This document shows positions 17,109 through 37,296 of a stretch of DNA of 64,000 nt, one piece after another. Source of the DNA: Prolixibacter sp. NT017. Its GTDB lineage: Bacteria > Bacteroidota > Bacteroidia > Bacteroidales > Prolixibacteraceae. The first letter of the stretch is position 1, and each line of letters opens with the position of its first letter. The notes under the pieces were generated by a model that had not been told where the DNA came from, searched no databases, and saw nothing but the letters and a program-made list of their open reading frames with translations. The stretch spans positions 4,092,001 to 4,156,000 of the forward strand of contig NZ_BLAV01000001.1 of the NCBI RefSeq assembly GCF_009617875.1, read 5' to 3'. The position numbers and the translations under genes were made by a program.

Positions 17109-18437
17109 ATGAAGAAGAAAAAAAGGAATTTTCGTCTGCTAATTATCCTGGCTTTTGCACTTATTATTCTGCTTATCATCGGTAAAAAAGCCGGCTGGTT
17201 TGGAAAAGATTTTGCTACGCGGGTAGCCGTCGAAAAAGCAGAGAAGAAAGATATCACCGAGCTCATTACGGCAAACGGAAAGATTGAGCCGCAAACCGAG
17301 GTAAAAATCAGTCCGGAAGTTCCCGGTGAAATTATCGAACTTCCCGTAAAGGAAGGCGACGAAGTAAAAGAAGGCGACCTGTTGGCCGTTATCAAGCCCG
17401 ATATTTACATTTCCAACCTCAACCGGTCGCGTGCCAGCTTAAACACGCAAAAAGCCCGTTTAGCACAGGCTGAAGCCCAACTCACCGAAAAGAAACTGGC
17501 CTTCGACCGCTCGAAACAACTTTTCAAACGGCAAACCATTTCGCAGGCCGATTACCAATCGGCGGAAGCTGCCTATAAAGTCGCTGTTTCGGAAGTTGAA
17601 GCCGCTCGTTTCCTGGTAAAAAGTGCCGAATCGAGTGTGCAGGAATCGGAAGAAAACCTGACGAAAACCAAAATCTATGCTCCCATTTCGGGAACGATTT
17701 CCAAACTCAACGTCGAAAAAGGGGAGCGCGTTGTAGGAACCAACCAGTTTGCCGGTACCGAGCTGATGACGGTTGCCAACCTTAACAGCATGGAGGTAAA
17801 GGTTGAAGTCAATGAGAACGACATTGTGAAAGTGCAGTTAGGTGATACCGCATTGGTAGAAATTGACGCCTATGTGAACCGGAAGTTCAAGGGAATTGTG
17901 ACGGAAATTGCCAGTTCGGCTAATATATCCGGTACCTCAACCGACCAGGTCACCAATTTCGATGTGAAGATTTTATTGCTGCAAAGTTCGTATGATGATT
18001 TGCTGAAGAAACAATCGGAGCGCTATCCTTTCCTACCGGGAATGTCTGCAACCGTCGATATCCGGACTAATACCCGGAACGGCGTGATTACCGTCCCTAT
18101 CCAGGCCGTTACCACACGTAGCGAAACCGGAGAAGCCAAAGCCGAAACCGCAGGTCTTCAGCAGGTCAATGATGAGGAAACAAGCGACAACGGGAATGAA
18201 CAACCCAAACCGGAAGCGAAGCAACATGAGATTGTTTTCGTGTACAATGATGGCGTGGTTCGTGAAAAGCAGGTCAAAACCGGCATCCAGGACAACGTCA
18301 ACATCGAAATAGAGGATGGGCTGAAAGGTGGTGAAGAGGTTGTTACCGCTCCCTACGGACTGATTTCGCGTACCCTGAAAGACTCCATGGCCGTCGAAGT
18401 CGTTCCAATTGACGAGTTGTATAAGACGAAGAAATAG
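17109..18437 (+). CDS. HlyD-family periplasmic adaptor without adjacent permease
   Basis: A 442-residue membrane fusion protein. It has a very basic N-terminus (KKKKRNF) and an anchor helix (LLIILAFALIILLIIG). The biotinyl-lipoyl half-motifs are KISPEVPGEIIELPVKEGDEVKEGDLLAVI and TKIYAPISGTISKLNVEKGERV, separated by a long helical hairpin. The C-terminal domain contains an insertion rich in E/T/Q (about residues 340-375). MacA-like adaptors normally precede macB-type genes; here the next 860 bp are non-coding and hold a 42-bp repeat array. The gene may pair with a transporter elsewhere, or its partner genes were lost. Confidence 0.88.
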   Translation: MKKKKRNFRLLIILAFALIILLIIGKKAGWFGKDFATRVAVEKAEKKDITELITANGKIEPQTEVKISPEVPGEIIELPVKEGDEVKEGDLLAVIKPDIYISNLNRSRASLNTQKARLAQAEAQLTEKKLAFDRSKQLFKRQTISQADYQSAEAAYKVAVSEVEAARFLVKSAESSVQESEENLTKTKIYAPISGTISKLNVEKGERVVGTNQFAGTELMTVANLNSMEVKVEVNENDIVKVQLGDTALVEIDAYVNRKFKGIVTEIASSANISGTSTDQVTNFDVKILLLQSSYDDLLKKQSERYPFLPGMSATVDIRTNTRNGVITVPIQAVTTRSETGEAKAETAGLQQVNDEETSDNGNEQPKPEAKQHEIVFVYNDGVVREKQVKTGIQDNVNIEIEDGLKGGEEVVTAPYGLISRTLKDSMAVEVVPIDELYKTKK

Positions 18438-18455: not shown

Positions 18456-18707
18456 TTGAACCTGCCGGGAACTTTTCAGGGTGCCCCGTTTGAAAAAGTA
18501 TGTCCCCAGAACATGTTTTAGGGTGTGCCGCAAAAAAAAGTATGTATCCACAACATATTTTGACTTGTCCCCCTTCAAAAAGTATGTATCCACAACATGT
18601 TTTAGGGTGTCCCATTTGGGAAAGTATGTAGCCACAACATGTTTTGACCACCGCTCCGAGGAAAAATATGTATGCTCAGCATATTTGGGACAGTGCTCCG
18701 GAGTCTT
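18456..18707. repeat. tandem array, exact 42-bp period (five clear copies plus one degenerate)
   Basis: The anchor GTATGT recurs at 18498, 18540, 18582 and 18624, and as ATATGT at 18666, exactly 42 bp apart. A weaker copy starts at 18456. A typical unit contains GTATGTATCCACAACATG followed by TTTTAGGGTGTCCC, with the palindrome AACATGTT in the better copies. Because 42 is a multiple of three, several frames stay open with 14-residue repeats, but I regard those as by-products. The remainder of the 18438-19298 gap shows no gene. Confidence 0.85.
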
Positions 18708-24338: not shown

Positions 24339-25301
24339 TTAGAAATACCGTGGCCCCATCCGGCGGCGGCGGCGACCAATGTTGAAATCGTAGCTGACCA
24401 TGAATTCGTGTGTCCCGGCATTGTAGTGCGCTTCAGACATGGTGGTCATATCGTAGGCATAGCCAATTTTCACCTGCGGAGTTATATAAAACTGCAACAG
24501 TCCACCGAATGAATTCTGATACCGATAAGTCGCTCCTACCCACACCTTCTCGCTAATCAGGAATTGTGCTGAAACATCGGCCGATATCGGCGAATTCTCT
24601 GCATAGCGAACTAAAAACGAAGGTTTGAATTTCAGCGTACCGTAACGCGACACATTGAATACCTGAGCTCCCATCAAGTAAAAGTGGAGCACTTCGGTCT
24701 GACTTAAATTGGTCGTCTCCTTTTGGATACTGTTTTTGAGAATTTTCGGCACCGATATTCCCAGGAAAAAGCGATCGCCATGCCACATCACACCTACCCC
24801 GAAGTTGGGAAGAAATTTGTAGTTGATATCCTGGGCAAAAAGCGGGTCATTGGGGTCGTTGATCTGAAGATCGGACAGACGGGCCTCATACAGGTTGAAA
24901 CCAGCTTCCAAACCAAAAGAGATATACTGCCGGCGACTGTAACGACTGGCGCGCACACGGTAGGCATAGTCGAAGTAAATACCGTTCTGTTTGACCGGTC
25001 CCCAACTATCGTTGAAAATCGACACACCCAACCCGACATTATACGAGTTAAGCGGAGCCTGAACCGTAACTGTATTGGTTGAAGGAGCGCCGTCGAAACC
25101 GACCCATTGCTGCCGCGAAAGAGCCGTCACATTCAGGGTACCCTGACTTCCTGCATAGGCCGGCTGCACCGTTAGTACGTTGTTCAGGTACTGCGTAAAA
25201 ACCGGATCCTGTTGCGCTTTTCCCACAAAGGGAAGTAACATCAGCACAGCAAATACTCCCAGCAGGTTAGTCCACTTTAATATGTTGGTTCGTTTTGTCA
25301 A
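24339..25301 (-). CDS. PorP/SprF family type IX secretion membrane protein
   Basis: A 320-residue outer-membrane barrel of the PorP/SprF family. The signal peptide is followed by the diagnostic start QQDPVFTQYLNNVLTVQPAYAGSQG. The remainder is a beta-barrel with TALSRQQWVGFDGAPSTNTV and the segment LGVSIFNDSWGPVKQNGIYFDYAYRVR. SprF-type members are dedicated partners for secretion or surface retention of adhesins with type B T9SS signals, and such a protein is encoded upstream (26249-28582). The start is TTG at 25299-25301: an in-frame stop lies just upstream and the next Met is inside the signal peptide. The C-terminus is Arg-rich (GRRRRRMGPRYF), odd for a barrel end. A 947-bp repeat region separates it from the PKD operon. 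Confidence 0.9.
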   Translation of the reverse strand: MTKRTNILKWTNLLGVFAVLMLLPFVGKAQQDPVFTQYLNNVLTVQPAYAGSQGTLNVTALSRQQWVGFDGAPSTNTVTVQAPLNSYNVGLGVSIFNDSWGPVKQNGIYFDYAYRVRASRYSRRQYISFGLEAGFNLYEARLSDLQINDPNDPLFAQDINYKFLPNFGVGVMWHGDRFFLGISVPKILKNSIQKETTNLSQTEVLHFYLMGAQVFNVSRYGTLKFKPSFLVRYAENSPISADVSAQFLISEKVWVGATYRYQNSFGGLLQFYITPQVKIGYAYDMTTMSEAHYNAGTHEFMVSYDFNIGRRRRRMGPRYF

Positions 25302-26248
25302 ATTAATTCAATTTCAATCTTTTCGTTTCAAACGGTATACGGATTAGGGTATAGGGTGTAAGGGGTTCCTATGCTTTTCTCCCGGATTCCGTTCTATTTT
25401 TTTCATTTTTCAAATATCATTTATCAGCGTTGGCTCTGTTGCTGTCGAAACAGCGTTGGCGTTTCAAACCACTGCCTCTCGCGACCGCCTTATTACGGGG
25501 TCTGGCTTAACATTCCCAAGGCGGTGCCATTGGGCTAAATTAAACTGGCCTTTCAGGCCGAAAAATACTACAATACTGTGCCCTACGGGCAAACAGATAA
25601 ACAGCACTCAGTCACTTCTCTGCCTTCTTAAATCTTAACACTCTAAGCTTTATTCTTATGAACGCTTTTCTTCTTTATATCGTGCCAGATCTGTTTCATA
25701 AAACTTAAAACCTAACACTTAAAACTTTCTCCGTCTAAAGCCACCAGTTACCGTTTCCCAGGCCTCTGCTGTTCGCGGGCTATCCTCCGCTGGAGGAGGT
25801 GGCCGCAGGCCGGAGGAGGATTGTAAAACTCCTACGGAGTATGGGCACTTCCTTCTATTTCATTTTTACAATACTGTATGCCCTACGAGCAAACAGATGC
25901 TAATTTTCAAAACATCTACGTCGCTGCAATTGCGCTCGAAACAGCGTTGGCTTTTCAAATTCACGGGTTGCACCCGACATGCCCCCGGATGCTCCCGACG
26001 CCTCGGGACAGGGCTATTAATTTTTTAACCCCTACCGGGGTTGTAAGAACGCTTTTCTCCAACCTGAAATGTCAAAGGTGTAAAGTCTGATGTCTGCAGT
26101 CTTTATTCTTAAAACTTAACACCTAAAACTCTGTTCTAATGAACGCTTTTCTTTCTTATTTCGTATTGTGTCAGGTTAAATTCGCTCTTCTTAAAACCTA
26201 ACACTTAAAACTTCTTCCGTCTAACATCTCTCCTCTAACGTCTCTCTT
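25302..26248. repeat. 947-bp intergenic region made of degenerate repeats
   Basis: No gene is seen. Three kinds of repeat occur. (1) GAAACAGCGTTGG followed by TTTCAAA at ~25447-25470 and ~25938-25958. (2) TACAATACTGT plus GCCCTACGGGC (or GAGC), then AAACAGAT, at ~25568-25597 and ~25867-25897. (3) A ~115-bp direct duplication at ~25627-25740 and ~26103-26225, containing ATGAACGCTTTTCTT and CCTAACACTTAAAACTT. GGGTTGCACCCG and CCCCTACCGGGG are small hairpins of the kind common in Bacteroidota intergenic repeats. Confidence 0.6.
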
Positions 26249-28582
26249 CTAGTAGGCTATGTAGACGAATCCTTTATAGGTCTTGTGCGTACCACCGAGG
26301 GTTAACACATAATAGTATGTTCCAACCGGCAACAAGCGGTCACCCGACATCAGGCCGGTATTGCACTTACCATCCCAGTCGTTTTTGTAATCCTTGCTCG
26401 TGTATACCTTGCTCTGCCAACGATTATAAACCGTAAGTACCGTACCCGGATATTGCTCAATACCCAGAATCTCGAAGGTGTCGTTAAAGCCATCCTGGTT
26501 CGGAGAAAAAGCCTCCGGAATCACAAACGGACCTCTGCTGACATCAATGACCACCACGGCCGAATCACACAGATTGGTCAAGTCACACACCTGGTAGGTA
26601 AACTGATCGTTCCCCTGGTACGGTTCCGTTGGAATATAGTTAATGGTTCCATCGGGCAATACCTTCACATCTCCATAACTCGGTTTTAGCAATATTGTCA
26701 CCGAGCTGGTATCCAGATTATTGTCGACATCAACATCGTTGGCTAATACTCCTATGTTGATGGGTTCCTGAGCTGACGTAGCTGCAAAATCATCGTATGC
26801 CACCGGTGCATGATTCACTCCTTGCACAACAACAATATCAGTAGCAGGACAACCTGATGAGTCTTTAACATCAAGGGTATACGTACCCGGTGAACTAATT
26901 TCCAGGATCGGCTCATCGGAAACACCCTCGATGGTTCCATCGGTCGTACTCCAGTGAAAAGTAAGTGGAGCATTGCCAGTCGTTCCGGAAGCATCCAGAA
27001 CAGCACTCATACCCGATTCAAGCGTTTCTGGTGCATCCATTACAATTTCCGGCAATGGCAGCACCGTAGCAACCATTGTGTCTTTTTTACTCAATCCGGC
27101 ACTATTCGTAACCGTCAAAATCAATTCATGCTGTCCCGGTCCATCGGGCACATAGTTGGTTACCTGGGCCGTTGGGTTATCAAACGTGCCGGTAGTTGAT
27201 GTCCAGTCGTACCGCAAATCCAATCCCTGAGAACCGGAAGCATCCGCCACAACGGTCCCACAGCCACTAACAGTAGTATCATTGCCGGCATTCGCAATCA
27301 GGTCGGCCATTACATATACATAGGCTGTTGCATACGTCTGGCGTGTTCCATCACTCACTTCATACACAAAATGATCGGCTCCGATGTATCCCGGATTCGG
27401 CGTATAGCTAAAACTACCATCTGTTTTCAGGTTGACCATCCCATGATCGGGACCGTTAGCATCTTTATTAGCCAGTTTGTAGGTAAGCGCCTGTTTTCCG
27501 TCCACCGACAGATCGTTGGGGGCGACCGAACCCGACTTTTCCTTCATGAACGACATGAACAGGTCGTCGCCACCGAAAGGCGGATTATTCTGATTCGTGT
27601 TATCGTACAACCGAAGCTTCACCTTCGCCTCTACGGTGCTATGACCGTCGGTTACTTCGTAGGTAAATTCATCGTCTACCGGGTTCGGTGTCGATGGCGT
27701 ATAGATATATGTTCCGTCGGCGTGCAATACTACGGTACCGTGCAACGGGCCTTTCGCAGGCGTGGTATTCACGGTGAGCGGATCGCCGTTCAGGTCGATA
27801 TCGTTGTTCAGTACGGTCGAATGGATGGTGGTACCGGCAGGTGCCCTTGCCTCATCATTAAAGGCGACCGGCGGATATTGCTTCGACGGATTCGTTCTCA
27901 GGATTTCGAACTGCACCCTCGACTCCATGATGATGCCATTGCGTTCTACCTTGTAAGAGAATGAATCGTGTCCCGCATAACCATTATCCGGCATATACGA
28001 ATAGTTACCATCATGAATACCGATAACAACAAAGCCGTTTTTCGCCTGTTGGGTCACACTGGCTATCAAATCCGATTGACCCGCCAGATTGTCCAGCGGC
28101 AATGCTTTGGTATTTGTTGCAGCCGTCGACAACATGAAGTCGTTGGTAAACACACTTCCGTTGAAGGCGGTTTCGCCGTCGCTTACGCTCATGATGTTGT
28201 GGTCATCGACCAGCTCGAAGGTGTATGGCTCGACAATCTCAACAGAGATCTGCCTTGGATCGCCGTTACAAACGGCAATCTGCTGCCCATCGGTATTCAC
28301 GTGTATCTGCGTAACCGAGAGCTCCAGTGTGTAGATGCCGGGAGTTCCATCCCAGGTTATGGTTACTGAGTTTCCGGTAGATGCACTCAAATCGGTGGAG
28401 GAACCGCCGGAAGAGACACTCCAGTGGTACTGGTAGTTTGGCTCGGCCGTTACGCTGTAGGTCCGTTGTTCACCCTGCGGCACTTGCTGATCGGCCGTGG
28501 TCTGGGCATACCCTTTCCCTACCGGGAAGAGGAGTGCCAGCAGGCTAACCAACAGGATGATATGTTTCACGTAGACCTTCAC
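26249..28582 (-). CDS. large Ig/cadherin-like surface protein with type B T9SS sorting domain
   Basis: A 777-residue secreted protein. After the signal peptide (KHIILLVSLLALLFPVGKGYAQ) comes a PKD-like domain (GEQRTYSVTAEPNYQYHWSV; ITWDGTPGIYTLELSV) like those of the small proteins upstream. Tandem cadherin/VCBS-like domains follow (VAFNDEARAPAGTT..., DEFTYEVTDG, DHFVYEVSDG; about residues 160-430), then two PKD domains (430-590), another cadherin-like domain (590-675), and the terminal domain starting IPEAFSPNQDGFNDTFEI and ending THKTYKGFVYIAY. That terminal domain is the gliding-motility-associated (type B) T9SS signal. The start is GTG, either at 28582 or four codons later. It is the last gene of the operon, 4 bp after its neighbour. 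Confidence 0.9.
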   Translation of the reverse strand: MKVYVKHIILLVSLLALLFPVGKGYAQTTADQQVPQGEQRTYSVTAEPNYQYHWSVSSGGSSTDLSASTGNSVTITWDGTPGIYTLELSVTQIHVNTDGQQIAVCNGDPRQISVEIVEPYTFELVDDHNIMSVSDGETAFNGSVFTNDFMLSTAATNTKALPLDNLAGQSDLIASVTQQAKNGFVVIGIHDGNYSYMPDNGYAGHDSFSYKVERNGIIMESRVQFEILRTNPSKQYPPVAFNDEARAPAGTTIHSTVLNNDIDLNGDPLTVNTTPAKGPLHGTVVLHADGTYIYTPSTPNPVDDEFTYEVTDGHSTVEAKVKLRLYDNTNQNNPPFGGDDLFMSFMKEKSGSVAPNDLSVDGKQALTYKLANKDANGPDHGMVNLKTDGSFSYTPNPGYIGADHFVYEVSDGTRQTYATAYVYVMADLIANAGNDTTVSGCGTVVADASGSQGLDLRYDWTSTTGTFDNPTAQVTNYVPDGPGQHELILTVTNSAGLSKKDTMVATVLPLPEIVMDAPETLESGMSAVLDASGTTGNAPLTFHWSTTDGTIEGVSDEPILEISSPGTYTLDVKDSSGCPATDIVVVQGVNHAPVAYDDFAATSAQEPINIGVLANDVDVDNNLDTSSVTILLKPSYGDVKVLPDGTINYIPTEPYQGNDQFTYQVCDLTNLCDSAVVVIDVSRGPFVIPEAFSPNQDGFNDTFEILGIEQYPGTVLTVYNRWQSKVYTSKDYKNDWDGKCNTGLMSGDRLLPVGTYYYVLTLGGTHKTYKGFVYIAY

Positions 28583-28586
28583 GTAC

Positions 28587-29321
28587 TTAATTCATTTGTA
28601 TAGCCGGGGTTACCGGTGTTTTAAATATTGTGTATTGGAATGCTCCGGCAGTTGTCGAAACATGAATCTCCATTCCGTACTTGTCGGTGGCTTTCACCAG
28701 TACGACGTCGTAAACCTGGTCTTGCAACACATTGTTTACGAGGCCGTTCAGCGCTAAGCTGTAATCGGTGGCATCCAACAATTTCTTTTGGAGATTTTCA
28801 GTGGTTCCGTCTGGTTTAGTAACCTTATAATCCACGGTCACCGGGTAATTTGAATTCGGTAACGGAACGCCATCGGCCGCAAACAGTTCAACGGTCGCCG
28901 TTGTGTTGCTGGTCGGTATATTCGGGTCGGCACAATCGCCGGCCTCTTTTGGGTTAAAGGCGATACTGGATGTGTTGGGCTGGACATTGACGACGATGGC
29001 TTTGGTGTTGGTACAGCCATCGGCATTGGTTTCCGTTGCCGTTACATAGTAGGTTCCGGCTTTGGCCCAGGTCACATCAATGGAAGCCTGGTTGTTCCCT
29101 GACGGGAAACTGATTTCCGAAGGTTGTGTTGCTTCGGTGGTAAATGTTTGTTCGTTGTAAATCACCCAGGAGTAGCTACTCCCGGGATGATTTTCAACAA
29201 AAAGATTGCGTGTTTGCCCTTCTGACACCACAAACGCCACCTGTGCCGTGGCAGAAGCCACGGCCAGGATTACCCATCCAACGATGAGTAGCAGGCGTTT
29301 ATAGGTTAGGGTTGAGAACAC
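28587..29321 (-). CDS. small secreted PKD-like protein (operon gene 4)
   Basis: A 244-residue secreted protein of unknown function. The signal peptide (LLLIVGWVILAVASATAQ) is followed by a PKD-like domain: SYSWVIYNEQTF, then IDVTWAKAGTYYVTATETNADGCTNTKAIVVNVQ. A second beta-rich domain spans residues ~110-235. It ends FKTPVTPAIQMN, with the P-x-T-x-x-I tail shared by its neighbours, and has no T9SS C-terminal domain. The start is GTG (29319-29321). It lies 15 bp downstream of the 280-residue protein gene and 4 bp upstream of the T9SS-tagged protein gene, in the same minus-strand operon. Confidence 0.75.
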   Translation of the reverse strand: MFSTLTYKRLLLIVGWVILAVASATAQVAFVVSEGQTRNLFVENHPGSSYSWVIYNEQTFTTEATQPSEISFPSGNNQASIDVTWAKAGTYYVTATETNADGCTNTKAIVVNVQPNTSSIAFNPKEAGDCADPNIPTSNTTATVELFAADGVPLPNSNYPVTVDYKVTKPDGTTENLQKKLLDATDYSLALNGLVNNVLQDQVYDVVLVKATDKYGMEIHVSTTAGAFQYTIFKTPVTPAIQMN

Positions 29322-29336
29322 TAAATGTTATTTGAA

Positions 29337-30179
29337 TTAATTAGCTGTAATTGTAGATGTGTGTGGTCTAGCGACTACAGCGTCACCAGTATTATTGGTA
29401 CCATCACTTTCAATTGAACCGCTTGAACACTGAGTATTGCTTATTGTCAATGTTTCTGTGAAATCCTGTGCATCTACTGCTGAAGTATTATCATAGGTGT
29501 TACCGTTAGTATATGTAACTTCCAACTTAACTGAACCTGCTCCGGCAGGTGCGGTAACAGTTGTTCCACTAAGCGCTGTGCCTGTGATATCATTATCAGA
29601 AGCATCCAGTACTTTAACCGAACCACCAGAAATACCTGCGATAGCGCTATATGCATAGTTGAAACTCCAAGTCTCTGATGCACCAATACCATTCGAACTA
29701 ATAATATAAGTTACTGTAGCCGTTCCGTGATCATATGTCACACCTGTTGTACCATCCCAAGTAACTGCAACTGCATTATCATAGCAGAAATTACCACCAG
29801 TAACTGCAAGATCAAACGCAGATGGCTTAGGCTGAACTGGCAATGAACGAGTGTTACTGCATGAAGCCCCGTCTGTCTCAGTTACTTCAACTAAATAGTA
29901 GGTTCCATCTGTTTTAACACTGGAAGACCAAGTGATATTGACACTATTTCCACTACCAGAGATCGTCGCAACAGTACCTGTTACGTCTGTTGCATGGTCG
30001 CCTTCGTAGACTTTCCATGTATAACTAAAAGGAGTAGTACCGTCAGCCTCAAAGTGCTCAGTTACGGAATAGTTATGTGTTGCACCCGGATAAGGATTTT
30101 TTCCCGTTGACTGTGCAAACACTTTTGCACTACCTAGTGCAAAAAATGCGATAAGGGAGAGAATTACTAATTTTTTCAT
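29337..30179 (-). CDS. small secreted PKD-like protein (operon gene 3)
   Basis: A 280-residue secreted protein. The signal peptide (KLVILSLIAFFALGSAKVFAQ) leads into a PKD-like domain with GATHNYSV, FSYTWKVYEGDHATDV, VNITW and GTYYLVEVTETDGASCSNTRSLPVQ. The second half is a beta-rich, Thr/Ser/Gly-rich domain ending ARPHTSTITAN. Two Cys pairs (in the PKD domain and around GGNFCYDN/NTQCSSG) could form disulphides outside the cytoplasm. Function unknown; domain layout, size and C-terminal tail match the genes on either side, suggesting divergent copies of one structural subunit. Confidence 0.75.
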   Translation of the reverse strand: MKKLVILSLIAFFALGSAKVFAQSTGKNPYPGATHNYSVTEHFEADGTTPFSYTWKVYEGDHATDVTGTVATISGSGNSVNITWSSSVKTDGTYYLVEVTETDGASCSNTRSLPVQPKPSAFDLAVTGGNFCYDNAVAVTWDGTTGVTYDHGTATVTYIISSNGIGASETWSFNYAYSAIAGISGGSVKVLDASDNDITGTALSGTTVTAPAGAGSVKLEVTYTNGNTYDNTSAVDAQDFTETLTISNTQCSSGSIESDGTNNTGDAVVARPHTSTITAN

Positions 30180-30221
30180 GATTTTAAGATTAATTGCCCA
30201 ATTTTATTTCTGATTGATATT

Positions 30222-30911
30222 TTATGGTATTGCTTGATATTCAATATTGGAAGTTGCAGGTATTTGTGTGATAGTCAAAACCTGAGTACTGGTAACATCT
30301 GTCGGTGCAACACCGTTAGCATCTACTGCTGATGTAATGGAAATTGTTTTTGTGGCATCAGCACCACCAGCGTTATTTGCTAAATCATAAGAATAGGATA
30401 AAGTTCCCGTTCCTGGAGCGCTTGCAGATTCCGGTATCGTCAAAGTTTGAGGAGTAGTACCATCCGTTACAACAACCGTCCATGGGAATGTTCCACCAGA
30501 AACATTTACATCTCCACTAACACTGGTATTTCCTGTTTCAGCATCCGCACAAGTAGTTACTGCACCTGCAAATGCAATGTTTAAGTTATTATCTACAGTA
30601 ACCACAATTTCTTTATAGTTACTACATGTAGTTAGAGTTACCTGTTCAGTTATCCGTATTGTATAGGTGCCAGGTTTCTTCCATAAGATTTGGGCATTAT
30701 ACTGATCCGCATTCGTTAAAGTATATCCGTCTGCGGCTCCAGTTCCTGGTGTTACAGTCCAGGTATAAGTATTACCGCTTGTTGCACTTGCACCCGAACG
30801 ATATGAATAACTGGTATTCACATTCACGGTCTGAGCACCAGTAGTCCATTGAGCTGACACTTGGCCGGCAAAAGCCGCGATTAAAAAAGCTAATAAAGCA
30901 ACTTTTTTCAT
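30222..30911 (-). CDS. small secreted PKD-like protein (operon gene 2)
   Basis: A 229-residue secreted protein. It has a signal peptide (KKVALLAFLIAAFAGQVSAQ) and a PKD-like domain with TYTWTVTPGTGAADGYTLTN, AQILWKKPGTYTIRITEQ and TTCSNYKEIVVTVD. A second beta-domain (FAGAVTTCADAETGNTSVSG...) ends in a hydrophobic strand VLTITQIPATSNIEYQAIP. The tail contains P-x-T-x-x-I as in the 280-, 244- and 1460-residue proteins of the operon. No sorting domain is present. It starts 20 bp after the giant gene. Confidence 0.75.
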   Translation of the reverse strand: MKKVALLAFLIAAFAGQVSAQWTTGAQTVNVNTSYSYRSGASATSGNTYTWTVTPGTGAADGYTLTNADQYNAQILWKKPGTYTIRITEQVTLTTCSNYKEIVVTVDNNLNIAFAGAVTTCADAETGNTSVSGDVNVSGGTFPWTVVVTDGTTPQTLTIPESASAPGTGTLSYSYDLANNAGGADATKTISITSAVDANGVAPTDVTSTQVLTITQIPATSNIEYQAIP

Positions 30912-30931
30912 AACTGATTCTTTCTTAGTTA

Positions 30932-33900
30932 TTAATTGATTTTTTGATGTTCTATATCTTGTGTTTTTGGATTAAAATGAATCTCCACATTAAAACTTTG
31001 GGTAGTTTCATTTAGACTTTCATCAATAACTTTGAAAGTTACTGTCGAAATTCCCTCTGGGAATGCATATCCGCTTGGATCACCATCGCTATCGTCTCCA
31101 AAATCAACCAGTGTAACACTATTGTGTACTATTCGATATTCCACAATTAGATTGGCATTGGAAGTGCAGTTATCGTAATACGAGGTTCCTGGTAATCCAA
31201 TGTTATTAACTACATAGGTTCCTGTCCCAGGATCGTCGACACATCCTATTAAGACGTCATTCAATGTTTCAATAACCGGTGCCGTAATATCAGGTGTTGT
31301 GGAGACCGTATAAGAACCGCTCGCTGCACACCCTTTACCATCGGTAACCATCACATTATATGTTCCGGGTGAAAGTCCAGTTTGATCTTCCGACGAAGTA
31401 TTCAAACCGCTACCGTCCGTTGTACTCCATGAATATGTGTAGCCAGGAGTTCCTCCAGTAGCTGTCAGGTTAATAACACCATTACCACTGCCGGGACAAC
31501 TCTCATCAGTGATGGCGGCACTTAAACTGACCTTATTCACTATGATTTCAGCGACATCTGAAACACTGCTTGCGACTGTAGCCGTTGACATGCCTGGATT
31601 GGTACGTGAAACCGTAAGGACTCTTTGGTAATAGGTCTTACCCGCAGTAGTAGCCGGCGGCGTATAATCTTTGCCTGTTGCCCCGGAGATCCCTGTAAAG
31701 TTCGTTCCATCCGTACTCTCCTGCCATTGGTATGCGACCGTGTAACTGGTGTTGCCTGAGATTGGACTATCAGCAAACGCATCACTTCCAACAATCGCAG
31801 CGGGCGTACTATTGATACAGACATTCTGGGTATTTCCAGAAGTCAGCGTATTGTTAACCTTTCGAAGATTATTAAATGAAATCCGGTTCGCTCCGGTATT
31901 TTCATAAAAATCCAATAGCAGATGATTATCTCCGTTTACACTGAAAAGAATTCCTGCATCCGTAGCATAAGCCCGGTTGCTCCAATGATCATATACAGCA
32001 TTTCCGTCGACATACAAGCGGGCACCATCATCACTGCCAATATCTACCAGGTAAATACCATTCAGAGTTGAGTGCATCTGGTAATGAACTGAAAAAGTGG
32101 TAGTATTAATGGAAGCTTTTCCTGCTCCCAGGCTGTTATCAAAATCATAACAGTTTGTAGAACCGCCAAAATCCTCATCAAATTCCTGTGGCTCGCTCGT
32201 ATAACCATAGTAATCCTGGAAGTTGGTTCCGTCGTAAATATGCCCAATCCACGAGTCTGTACCTTCAGTCGACGGATCATCACTGGAAATAAAGCCTGTC
32301 ACAGTTACTTTTTGCGTTGCCGTAGCTGTATTTCCTGAGTTGTCGGTCACCGTCCAGGTAACTGTTGTCGTTCCTTCCGGGAAAGATACGGGAGCATTGT
32401 TTGTGACGCTGGCCACCCCGCAATTATCGTCTGTGGTCGGTGTGCCCAAACTTACACCCGTTGCCACACAAGAACTCGGATCGAAATATACCGACACATC
32501 AGCTGGTGCCGTAATGGTCGGATTTTGATCATCGGTCACTGTTACATCCATACTCGCCTGGGCAGAATTACCCGAAGCATCTGTCACGGTCCAGGTAATC
32601 GTTGTTGTTCCTTTATTGAAGGTATAGGTACCCACTGAATTAATGCCCGAGCCAGCAGAATTGTCCACCGTTGCTCCGGTCATTTCCCAGGTTAACGACG
32701 CAACGGAGCAGTTATCACTATAGGTTGGATCGGGTACGGAAACTGCTGCCGTACAAACTCCAAGGTCTACTGATTGTGTAATATCTGAAGGTGCTGTAAT
32801 CGTGGGAGGCTCTGTTTCCGTTACTGTAATCTGAAAACTGCAAGTCGTTACATTCCCATCAATGTCAGTAGACGAAAAAGAAAGCGTATGGGTACCAACC
32901 GTAAAGAAGGAGCCGGAAGGTTGACCACTATCCATTGTAAACTGTGGTCCTTCAAATTCAATGATCGCTCTACGGGAATCATCGCTATAATTGTCGTTCC
33001 ACTCACCATAAAAATCATGATAAGATGGCCATTGCCAATAAGTAAAGTTCCATAGTTCTGCCCAATCCTGATCTACTCCATTACTATTGACCAGATTATT
33101 AGGCTGATTACCGATTAATGTACCTTGATACCACTTATCGTAGACAAACGGCTCCCCTGTAACCCATTTCCATGTCCCCTCTGTTTCTGCATCCGTAAGT
33201 CCTATCCAATATTTATAATCTGTTCCGCTAGTAGTGCTTAAATTTTTTCCCCACGGTGTATTAAGTGTTAAATAATCATTCTCCCCCGATGAAGTAATAG
33301 TCGCTAAATGTCCACCAACCTCAAAAGCCTTTGTTTGCGCTTCAGCCGGAGTCATCTTCACGTTTGTATAATAATAACTATGCCCATTATACATACCGAT
33401 ATAAGTCAATCCCGATCCACTTAAGTCACCCGTAAATGCTCCACTATTGTCGGTCACCACTGGTACATCATACCAAACATAGGCACCACACTCCCCTGAT
33501 GAATTTGTGGCATCTGCGGTTACCGTGATATCACTTGAACATGTAGTGAAAACAGGCGGATCAACCTGAACCGTAATGGTTGCACTTCCTGCATTTCCTG
33601 TACCTGTATTCGAATTAGCATCAACAACATCAACCAATGAATATGTTGTTGTAGCACCTGGACTAACAGTAATCGGATCTCCACTAATGTAGTTACTAAC
33701 AGTGTAATTACTCGTGCCATCGGTATAAACTATCGTATATGGCTCAGTTCCTCCTGTTATCCTTACTGAGAGATTAGCTGATTCTCCTGAATTAATTGTT
33801 GCATCACCGGAAAGAATAGCTGAGGTGGAACCAATACCGCAGTTCCCACCAGACAAAGAACAATAAAAAGCTTGAAGCGAAGAAGGTAAATCCCCTGAAG

Positions 33901-35314
33901 ATGTGCCAGACGGTGTCAAGCCATTCAATATTGGTGTATCATCAAATACATAAATATCACCAGTGTTGCTTATTTTATGCCCCGAATTGTCAAAATTCCC
34001 CGAAAAAATTATGGTTCCCTCGTTCGAAATAATTCCATTCGAAGTAGATCCATCATAATTTCCTAAAACTATTAACACCCCTTCAGGTCCAATCGTCAAT
34101 GTTGGATTGGTGGCCAAAAAGTCTCCTGTAACGACCAAGGTATCGCATAAATATTGCTGCGAAGTACCAATCGTCAAATTACCATTAATAGTTATATTCC
34201 CATGGATTGTGATTGTTTGACTACTTACCGGATCACTTGGTGGTGGAACGACGAAACCCGCATCACTTGTTCCCCAACTATTTGGATCTTCCCAGTTACC
34301 GGTATAATTATCTTTGCTGAAGTATCCACTATTGGGTAACCCACAATCAGTAACTAAAACATACGTGGAGTCTGTAATTGAACACCCAATTGAATTGACG
34401 GCAGTACATGTATAGTAACCAGTCATACCTAATGTCGCAGAACTGATTGTTAAAGTTGCCTGATCAGTTGTTTGCGAAAACCCAGCAGGACCCCTCCAAT
34501 GATAATATACAGGCTGGTAAGTCCAGGACGGATCGGACTGTGCTTCTGCTGTTAAAGTTATACTCCCACCAACTTGTATCATGCCTTGGGAATGTGGAAT
34601 ACCATAAACTCCGTTCCATGTCGGTGCCGTCGTAACAGAACAATCGATTAAGTTCAATACTCCAGATGGTATGCTATTGATGTTGTTTGCAAAATCTTGC
34701 GCGGTCCCATAATCACAATTATCGCCTACAGTAGATGTAGAACCAGAATAAGTACCATCACAAGTAGTAAAGTTAGCCCATGGATCTGTAGATGTGGCAC
34801 CACCGCTTGGTACTGACACATTGCCTAACAAGTAAATGTGAGCTCCATCAATTGTCAAATCCCCCTGATTACTAGACCCCGATTTTGTAAAATCCCCTGT
34901 AACGATAAAATAACTCGAGAGAGTAAGCACAACTTTGTTTGACAAAGTCACATTCCCATTTACAATGACTGTAGAATATCGTCCCATGAAGAATTCAGAC
35001 TCCTGCGTGCCTGTAAACTCCATAGTCATATCACCATTAACAATCAGAGTTCCATAAACAGACAAACTTCCGGTTGGACTGATTGTCAAATTACCTATCC
35101 GGACTGTATCACCAACTGGAATTACAACAGTGTTATTTACGGTAACATTGTCTGTTGATCCAGGCAAAATCCCAGTATCCCATATAGATGTATTGGTCCA
35201 GTCACCATCAGCAATTGTATTTTGCGCAAAAACAATACGGGAAGAAAATAGTAGGCAAAGCAACATTATCACTATTCCCCACCTAACATCGACAGTAGTA
35301 AACCTTCTCAACAT
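30932..35314 (-). CDS. giant mosaic surface protein (CTL, HYR, PA14-like, SprB-like repeats)
   Basis: A 1460-residue secreted adhesin-like protein, first gene of the operon. I use ATG 35314: the longer frame begins with a TTG 15 codons upstream, whereas MLRRFTTVDVRWGIVIMLLCLLF gives a normal signal peptide. The N-terminal ~200 residues look like a beta-helix (repeats of IVNGDMTMEF, VIVNGNVTLS, YLLGNVSVPS). An Ig-like domain follows (~260-315, YYHWRGPAG...GYYTCTAVN). A C-type lectin-like domain (~635-790) includes AQTKAFEVGGHLATITS and KYWIGLTDAETEGTWKW. HYR domains (~805-1005) show DNCSVASLTWEMTG and GTTTVTWTVTDNSGNTA. Then come a PA14-like region (~1010-1155, DIGSDDGARLYVDG) and an SprB-like repeat (~1271-1338, GTPGYTYSW, GLSPGTYNVMVTD). 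It ends NPKTQDIEHQKIN with no T9SS domain. Confidence 0.85.
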   Translation of the reverse strand: MLRRFTTVDVRWGIVIMLLCLLFSSRIVFAQNTIADGDWTNTSIWDTGILPGSTDNVTVNNTVVIPVGDTVRIGNLTISPTGSLSVYGTLIVNGDMTMEFTGTQESEFFMGRYSTVIVNGNVTLSNKVVLTLSSYFIVTGDFTKSGSSNQGDLTIDGAHIYLLGNVSVPSGGATSTDPWANFTTCDGTYSGSTSTVGDNCDYGTAQDFANNINSIPSGVLNLIDCSVTTAPTWNGVYGIPHSQGMIQVGGSITLTAEAQSDPSWTYQPVYYHWRGPAGFSQTTDQATLTISSATLGMTGYYTCTAVNSIGCSITDSTYVLVTDCGLPNSGYFSKDNYTGNWEDPNSWGTSDAGFVVPPPSDPVSSQTITIHGNITINGNLTIGTSQQYLCDTLVVTGDFLATNPTLTIGPEGVLIVLGNYDGSTSNGIISNEGTIIFSGNFDNSGHKISNTGDIYVFDDTPILNGLTPSGTSSGDLPSSLQAFYCSLSGGNCGIGSTSAILSGDATINSGESANLSVRITGGTEPYTIVYTDGTSNYTVSNYISGDPITVSPGATTTYSLVDVVDANSNTGTGNAGSATITVQVDPPVFTTCSSDITVTADATNSSGECGAYVWYDVPVVTDNSGAFTGDLSGSGLTYIGMYNGHSYYYTNVKMTPAEAQTKAFEVGGHLATITSSGENDYLTLNTPWGKNLSTTSGTDYKYWIGLTDAETEGTWKWVTGEPFVYDKWYQGTLIGNQPNNLVNSNGVDQDWAELWNFTYWQWPSYHDFYGEWNDNYSDDSRRAIIEFEGPQFTMDSGQPSGSFFTVGTHTLSFSSTDIDGNVTTCSFQITVTETEPPTITAPSDITQSVDLGVCTAAVSVPDPTYSDNCSVASLTWEMTGATVDNSAGSGINSVGTYTFNKGTTTITWTVTDASGNSAQASMDVTVTDDQNPTITAPADVSVYFDPSSCVATGVSLGTPTTDDNCGVASVTNNAPVSFPEGTTTVTWTVTDNSGNTATATQKVTVTGFISSDDPSTEGTDSWIGHIYDGTNFQDYYGYTSEPQEFDEDFGGSTNCYDFDNSLGAGKASINTTTFSVHYQMHSTLNGIYLVDIGSDDGARLYVDGNAVYDHWSNRAYATDAGILFSVNGDNHLLLDFYENTGANRISFNNLRKVNNTLTSGNTQNVCINSTPAAIVGSDAFADSPISGNTSYTVAYQWQESTDGTNFTGISGATGKDYTPPATTAGKTYYQRVLTVSRTNPGMSTATVASSVSDVAEIIVNKVSLSAAITDESCPGSGNGVINLTATGGTPGYTYSWSTTDGSGLNTSSEDQTGLSPGTYNVMVTDGKGCAASGSYTVSTTPDITAPVIETLNDVLIGCVDDPGTGTYVVNNIGLPGTSYYDNCTSNANLIVEYRIVHNSVTLVDFGDDSDGDPSGYAFPEGISTVTFKVIDESLNETTQSFNVEIHFNPKTQDIEHQKIN

Positions 35315-36540: not shown

Positions 36541-37296
36541 TCATAAGCGATTGTGAAGCAGACGATTTAACAGTTCATCTTTGTATTTCGAGGAAACCTT
36601 CAACATTTCCCCACTCCTCATTTCGACCATGCCGCCCCCCGATTTCAGGTAACGCACCACATTCTTCAGATTAATCAAATGGCTGCGGTGGATGCGGCAA
36701 AAGCCATGATGAGCCAGGAGATTTTCAAATTCCATCAGCGTCCGGCTCACCAATGTTTCGGTTCCATCCTTAAAGAAAATGCGCGAGTAATTACGCTCGC
36801 CTTCACAACGCTCGATGTCGTCAATCCGCACAATCGAAAATCCATTCAACTCAGGCAAGGCAATGGTAGCATTGGCCTCTTCAGACGACCCAAACAGATT
36901 GTCGCGCATGGCCCTTACTCTTGGCAAAGTCGATGCCGATGACACCTGGTTAATCCGGTTCAGCGATGCCTTAATGTCGTCGGGGACGATCGGCTTCACA
37001 ATGTAGTCGAATGCTGAATACTTAAAGGCTTTGATGGCATACTCGCTATACGCCGTTGTGAAAATTAGTTTGAAGTCGGTGTTCCCGAGTTTTTCGATTA
37101 AATCGAACCCGGTACCGTCGGGAAGTTTAATGTCGAGGAAAACCAAATTGGGATTCACCCGGTTAATCAACTCAAGACCTGAAGCTACAGAATCAGCTTC
37201 CCCCTCGAGAATCACATTTTCAAAACATTTCTCGAATGTCTTTTTCAAAATCGTTCTCGAAAGATGATCGTCGTCTATGATAACCGTGCGTAACAT
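36541..37296 (-). CDS. LytTR-family response regulator
   Basis: A 251-residue two-component regulator. The receiver domain (1-120) has acidic residues D8-D10, the phospho-acceptor D55 in LVFLDIKLPD, T80/T81 and K101 in DYIVKP. The C-terminal LytTR DNA-binding domain (~145-248) includes ERCEGERNYSRIFFKDG and the CRIHRSHLINLKNVVRY core. Members usually pair with a LytS/YehU-type histidine kinase, but none is adjacent. It points toward the surface-protein operon 1.2 kb downstream on the same strand and is a candidate regulator of it, though only position supports this. Confidence 0.92.
   Translation of the reverse strand: MLRTVIIDDDHLSRTILKKTFEKCFENVILEGEADSVASGLELINRVNPNLVFLDIKLPDGTGFDLIEKLGNTDFKLIFTTAYSEYAIKAFKYSAFDYIVKPIVPDDIKASLNRINQVSSASTLPRVRAMRDNLFGSSEEANATIALPELNGFSIVRIDDIERCEGERNYSRIFFKDGTETLVSRTLMEFENLLAHHGFCRIHRSHLINLKNVVRYLKSGGGMVEMRSGEMLKVSSKYKDELLNRLLHNRL

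Follow-up and report, generated by a model that had tools for sequence, protein, structure and literature searches.

Donor-strand linkage joins the subunits of chaperone-usher pili and of type V pili such as Mfa1, and the MSCRAMM adhesins use a dock, lock and latch mechanism; these are among the closest known systems to the locus described here, an operon for a putative split adhesin in Prolixibacter sp. NT017, found in a 64,000-nucleotide stretch of contig NZ_BLAV01000001.1 (hereafter the window, whose positions serve as coordinates). With respect to anchoring, two published accounts describe the holding of type B C-terminal domains (CTDs) of the type IX secretion system (T9SS) by PorP/SprF proteins (PMC9143113; PMC12618676). 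Like SprB with SprF in Flavobacterium johnsoniae and PG1035 with PorP and PorE in Porphyromonas gingivalis, the window locus pairs a type B CTD protein, here of 777 residues, with a PorP/SprF-family barrel, whose gene in this case belongs to the operon. However, the known type B adhesins are single polypeptides, whereas in this group of loci as many as six proteins without a CTD come before the CTD protein (in locus L100). We propose, with a probability of roughly 0.65, that the five separate proteins encoded in the window are joined head to tail in gene order into one surface adhesin, held by the terminal CTD and the PorP/SprF barrel.

Such an assembly would share with the donor-strand fimbriae a terminal peptide that completes the immunoglobulin (Ig)-like domain of a neighbor, as proposed here, and a division into tip, middle and anchor roles. 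It differs from them in that the peptide is a tail following the last domain, that several non-identical subunits stand in a fixed order, that none of the five proteins has a fimbrillin Pfam match even when matches up to E 0.1 are considered, and that the anchor is a T9SS type B CTD protein. It is also distinct from gliding SprF, which, according to one account, is tied to the gliding track by a twin-cysteine C-tail (PMC12635249): cysteine is absent from the last 40 residues of all 35 PorP proteins compared, that of the window included, and we rejected the window barrel as a gliding-track SprF on account of this cysteine-free tail. In three of three relatives tested a PorE-like gene (OmpA and PD40 in all three, TPR in two) follows PorP, as in published static complexes (PMC9143113; PMC12618676); in the window genome the PorE-like homologues lie elsewhere, outside the operon. 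The barrel without twin cysteines and the PorE-like genes of these relatives make a static anchor likelier than a gliding one. Searches of the open-access PMC literature, preprints excluded, listed no account of subunits without a CTD being chained to a protein with a type B CTD, and papers outside it may exist.

The original prediction, a model's reading of the bare sequence, had claimed five minus-strand genes and a PorP/SprF gene, all of which are confirmed as open reading frames (1460, 229, 280, 244, 777 and 320 residues). The first five follow one another as giant (1460 residues), 229, 280, 244 and 777, with gaps of 20, 42, 15 and 4 bp. Their parts, and a regulator gene upstream, are as follows.

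30932 to 35314, minus strand: 1460-residue secreted giant with HYR, C-type lectin and Ig domains, presumed distal adhesin; has a tail and no N-terminal acceptor; ATG at 35314
30935 to 30973, minus strand: C-terminal tail of the giant (from the sequence and the tail table)
30222 to 30911, minus strand: 229-residue subunit, slot S1
30591 to 30851, minus strand: N-terminal PKD-like acceptor of the 229-residue subunit (limits approximate)
30225 to 30263, minus strand: C-terminal tail of the 229-residue subunit
29337 to 30179, minus strand: 280-residue subunit, slot S2
29838 to 30110, minus strand: N-terminal PKD-like acceptor of the 280-residue subunit (limits approximate)
29340 to 29372, minus strand: C-terminal tail of the 280-residue subunit
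28587 to 29321, minus strand: 244-residue subunit, slot S3
28980 to 29240, minus strand: N-terminal PKD acceptor of the 244-residue subunit
28590 to 28622, minus strand: C-terminal tail of the 244-residue subunit
26249 to 28582, minus strand: 777-residue anchor with acceptor PKD, Big_9/cadherin-like repeats and type B CTD; no tail
28241 to 28504, minus strand: N-terminal PKD acceptor of the 777-residue anchor (limits approximate)
26258 to 26521, minus strand: type B T9SS CTD of the anchor (CHU_C/TIGR04131)
24339 to 25301, minus strand: PorP/SprF-family barrel, 320 residues, C-tail without cysteine
36541 to 37296, minus strand: LytTR response regulator upstream of the operon

The type B CTD of the 777-residue protein is recovered by both CHU_C (94.1 bits, cut-off 27) and TIGR04131 (52.2 bits, cut-off 35), neither of which matches the 1460-, 229-, 280- or 244-residue proteins, and the barrel is recovered by TIGR03519 (265.6 bits, cut-off 90.55) and PF11751 (266.7 bits, above cut-off). 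In the giant, the HYR (1.1e-25, four stretches) and C-type lectin (Lectin_C, 8.7e-9) domains of the original prediction hold good, along with an I-set match, while its PA14-like domain falls short at 19.3 bits against a cut-off of 24. The PKD-like domain that it had seen at the N-terminus of four proteins is indeed shared by the three small proteins and the anchor, and not by the giant. In the small proteins it has no Pfam match above cut-off (the best is PKD, E 0.003, in the 244-residue protein); a sequence search against solved structures gave nothing significant, and Foldseek and VIA searches returned generic Ig folds that we did not use as evidence. The three small-protein genes (28587-30911) share one reading frame; elsewhere the gaps are not all multiples of three.

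What the original prediction missed is a common C-terminal tail, P-x-T-x-x-I plus a few residues, which closes the giant and each of the three small proteins and which the 777-residue protein lacks. Most of the 103 homologues of the 280-residue protein end in R-P-x-T-x-x-I-x-x or a near variant, and its R, P and I occur without exception in 21 aligned S2 proteins. The 280-residue profile finds matches in 63 of 140 genomes of the family (Prolixibacteraceae) and in seven of 295 drawn from the order (Bacteroidales); a scan of named genomes gave one locus. From the family matches we chose forty loci by hand (L068-L107), 39 of which, all but L093, have a type B CTD gene. Their usual layout is a giant, one to several subunits, the CTD anchor and PorP/SprF, with a median intergenic gap of 32 bp (125 gaps). 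PorP/SprF is the very next gene after the anchor in 34 of the 39; the original prediction had it follow the 777-residue gene, and in the present strain 947 bp (25302-26248) of noncoding DNA with several short repeat types intervene between the two, pieces of which match 32 other places in the genome. The corresponding gap in L088 is 95 bp.

The subunits fall into slots S1, S2 or S5, S3 and S4, most of them encoded once per operon, and the window reads giant-S1(229)-S2(280)-S3(244)-anchor(777). Conservation of gene order had been set beforehand as a point on which the original prediction could fail, and the order is kept: none of the 39 loci shows a violation among classified members, unclassified ones being skipped and S2 and S5 given one rank. 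By a profile of small-protein N-termini, the PKD acceptor is present in 38 of 39 anchors and in one of 36 giants, these being all proteins over 370 residues without a slot class (two of them, of 893 residues in L078 and 543 in L098, have no tail and may be mere neighbors); the single positive, from L100, is subunit-like at 389 residues. All 74 small proteins carry the acceptor, the profile having been built on these same proteins, as do four of the ten unclassified members; one "S3" (L076, 397 residues) corresponds to the first portion of an anchor broken by a frameshift. Since the first protein has a tail only, the middle ones have both ends and the last has an acceptor only, the first would donate, the middle ones receive and donate, and the last receive; judged from sequence, this arrangement of ends is what a chain would need. 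In L079, L080 and L089 the first chain member in the fetched stretch is a protein of 260-265 residues rather than a giant.

As controls we used 68 CTD genes from 60 loci outside the family (L109-L164, hand-chosen among the listed matches from 148 genomes, 40 of them positive, plus L165-L168), and none of the encoded proteins has the acceptor; in a second set of twenty further loci, 15 of 18 CTD proteins carry it at the N-terminus. Likewise, 38 of the 39 family loci have, upstream of the CTD gene, a CTD-less, secreted-looking gene with the tail pattern, defined broadly for this count, as do 13 of 18 in the second set and one of 68 controls. Beyond the family, the order offers similar layouts in L169, L172 and, less clearly, L170, and L171 has a tail-bearing pair with no CTD gene alongside.

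The acceptor of the anchor changes together with the subunit encoded before it. We compared 58 locus pairs whose anchors are at least 70% identical outside the PKD (L076 is left out of this and all following comparisons of acceptors). In the 15 pairs with different upstream classes the anchor PKDs are 24-39% identical while the anchor remainders are 72-97% identical; in the 43 pairs with the same upstream class the PKDs are 46-100% identical (mean 70), and their mean is still 69% in the 25 same-class pairs whose subunit bodies are less than 35% identical. Identity of the anchor PKD has a partial correlation of 0.76 with tail similarity and of -0.26 with body identity (57 non-independent pairs), and label permutation gave no result as extreme in 5000 trials, both for 38 anchors and for the 34 left after collapsing. 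The comparison of L096 with L090 illustrates this: the end of the giant (87-97%), the first 30 residues of the subunit (97%) and the anchor beyond residue 120 (83-100%) are kept, whereas the subunit body (10-33%) and the first 90 residues of the anchor (23-27%) are exchanged, so that, on the evidence of the alignments, the mature subunit and the anchor PKD appear to have been replaced as a clean cassette. Closer to the window, the 244-residue protein is missing from Prolixibacter sp. SD074, whose anchor opens with the signal peptide and PKD of that very protein (92.6%); the SD074 and window anchors are 26% identical in the PKD and 87% in the remainder. With L087 and L088 left out, the ten nearest relatives of the window 244-residue protein's PKD are anchors following S2, and the nearest relative of the window anchor's PKD is that of an S4 following S3 (52%). 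Over all acceptors, with L094, L095 and L101 also omitted and giants with a fused module counted as S1-type donors, 42 of 99 nearest acceptors in another protein class have the same upstream class, against 10.7 expected, while mean identity differs little by upstream class (28.7 v 25.5%). At the giant-S1 joint the partial correlation of acceptor with tail is moderate at 0.57 (15 loci). Tail and acceptor thus appear to be linked by evolution at the anchor joint, and more weakly at the S1-S2 joint.

Another line of evidence comes from giants that directly precede S2 or S5, which end in a subunit-like module. Eight of these modules include a PKD (six found by profile; those of L077 and L099 by eye) and four lack one (L103 by profile, 8.6e-39; L070, L085 and L098 by eye). 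Of giants preceding S1, 13 of 20 end in P-x-[TSP]-G-x-I-[IV]-x-D, as opposed to none of the 12 preceding S2/S5; of the 11 unique tails in this second group, nine are closer to S1 tails than to those of pre-S1 giants, because these giants end in the subunit-like module. In L103 both the tail of the giant and the S1 acceptor are lost, which, as far as the sequences can tell, are the two parts that a covalent link would make unnecessary. The fused PKDs can come after a strand resembling a tail and then a glycine/serine-rich linker, most clearly in L073, L083, L099 and L106. Scored with a tail matrix, the expected junction region ranks first or second in five of ten fused giants (Fisher p 0.001, on related rows), and in an ungapped scan the giant's own C-tail beats all inner sites in nine of the ten, L106 failing. 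In L073 and L082 the highest-scoring inner matches fall, by eye, within HYR-like repeats and hence give no support.

Taken with the late start, at precursor residue 34, of the first strand modelled in the PKD of the 280-residue protein, the fused junctions suggest that the tail serves as a missing first strand. Gene order, the layout of tails and acceptors, and coupled exchange are read from the sequences, and from them we infer strand donation, co-secretion, a surface position and an adhesive role. The chain would run giant (1460)-229-280-244-777-PorP/SprF, with the tail of each protein but the last docking on the PKD at the N-terminus of the protein encoded next, most likely by donor-strand complementation, such that the tail would supply the missing first strand of a domain split over two polypeptides. 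Secretion by way of the 777-residue protein's CTD is likely because the other proteins lack one and PorP/SprF proteins are known to anchor type B CTDs; as this protein is the only carrier of a T9SS signal, the CTD-less proteins are probably carried across the outer membrane via SprA while attached to it. The genome, a single 5.14-Mb contig, encodes SprA and GldJ, three PorP/SprF proteins and five CHU_C matches, four of them over cut-off. After export the chain would be held by the CTD and the barrel, with the giant outermost. We tentatively go further and posit, as something just short of an even bet, an ordered non-covalent split adhesin whose PKD domains are divided between consecutive proteins, whose tails specify the neighbor, and in which up to six CTD-less proteins are exported on the type B CTD of the last, slots being inserted, deleted, fused or swapped provided that tail fits acceptor. 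The original prediction is thereby partly supported: its single assembly, with the 777-residue protein as anchor by virtue of its type B CTD and PorP/SprF, and the giant at the opposite end, finds support.

Several observations weigh against a chain specified by its tails, and they bear on the alternatives. At the joint before S2 (S1-S2) coupling is weak (partial correlation 0.19, 26 loci); the giants of L090 and L096 share their final 12 residues yet face S2/S5 acceptors only 34% identical, three further S2/S5 acceptor pairs are only 29-31% identical, and where S1-type tails come before S2 and S5 acceptors, these acceptors are on average 26% identical, as unrelated ones are. Either one tail type serves two acceptor families or the code is looser at the S2/S5 joint. 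In the remaining fused giants the junction strand ranks only 8 to 39. That unlike acceptors can follow like tails would suit a sorting signal: an export or targeting factor, which might be the PorP/SprF barrel itself, would recognize the tail as a short address, and each protein would arrive at the surface on its own. The tail's place at the absolute C-terminus, its invariant residues in S2 and the C-terminal position of known T9SS signals agree with this. We nevertheless think it unlikely, since the slots of a single operon have different tail classes, which vary with the gene that follows; since anchors keep their CTD part but differ in the PKD when the upstream subunit differs; and since the tail of a giant with a fused module is of that module's type.

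The models, too, sit uneasily with heterotypic docking: in two single-chain AlphaFold models the tail of the 229-residue protein is undocked (tail pLDDT 42-46, no strand), although only one or two aligned sequences covered it. Model 1 orders the 280-residue protein's own tail (pLDDT about 85), and in the model without that tail, made with a slightly different alignment, the protein's PKD block 81-90 stands at 73 instead of 92. This tail could therefore, on the models, dock homotypically, and a homopolymeric fibre, in which one or more small proteins polymerize by inserting tails into their own copies, as in pili, on a 777-residue base and with the giant as tip, would account for acceptor and tail on all small proteins. 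The single copy of most slots per operon and the excess of nearest acceptors sharing an upstream class render it, in our estimate, still less probable. The subunits of the original prediction stand, but not as interchangeable units of a fibre, each having its own place, apparently set by its tail and the next PKD; a surface layer or repetitive polymer finds no indication in the sequence. Finally, the proteins might be independent adhesins of one operon. The exchanged pieces adjoin in the DNA, recombination is frequent among surface-protein genes, one recombination tract without functional meaning could carry a subunit along with the adjoining 5' part of the anchor gene, and the 15 different-class pairs come down to about five exchange events (L096, L097, L098, L099 and S3 in Prolixibacter), nine of the pairs sharing L098. 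Yet the SD074 anchor has the 244-residue protein's PKD exactly where that protein is missing, and same-class loci keep the anchor PKD though their subunit bodies have diverged, making this the least probable of the three.

Some neighboring features and variants of the theme may be recorded. The LytTR response regulator may control the operon; a 251-residue protein with a C-terminus like its own lies upstream in L073, L082, L090, L092, L096 and L097. A 42-bp tandem repeat of four copies (18482-18655) follows a plus-strand open reading frame ending at 18437. A second tail flavor (of MPVI.. or PSIGTF.. types) accompanies the same gene layout in L094, L095, L101, L173, L177-L179 and L185 and suggests further tail/acceptor codes. 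In another order of the same class, L111 and L115 encode CTD-less giants (3539 and 1577 residues) with a common C-terminal end, followed by a CTD protein of 667-670 residues and by PorP; these may form a parallel adhesin in two parts that uses another tail.

If the split adhesin proposed here is real, it would represent a new way of making and exporting a giant adhesin in pieces, in which a single signal suffices for the T9SS to export assemblies of several proteins, and exchangeable pieces joined in gene order make up an adhesin several thousand residues long. Its tail/acceptor code would be testable peptide by peptide, and it would give a role to many hypothetical PKD-like proteins that adjoin PorP/SprF genes in Prolixibacteraceae.

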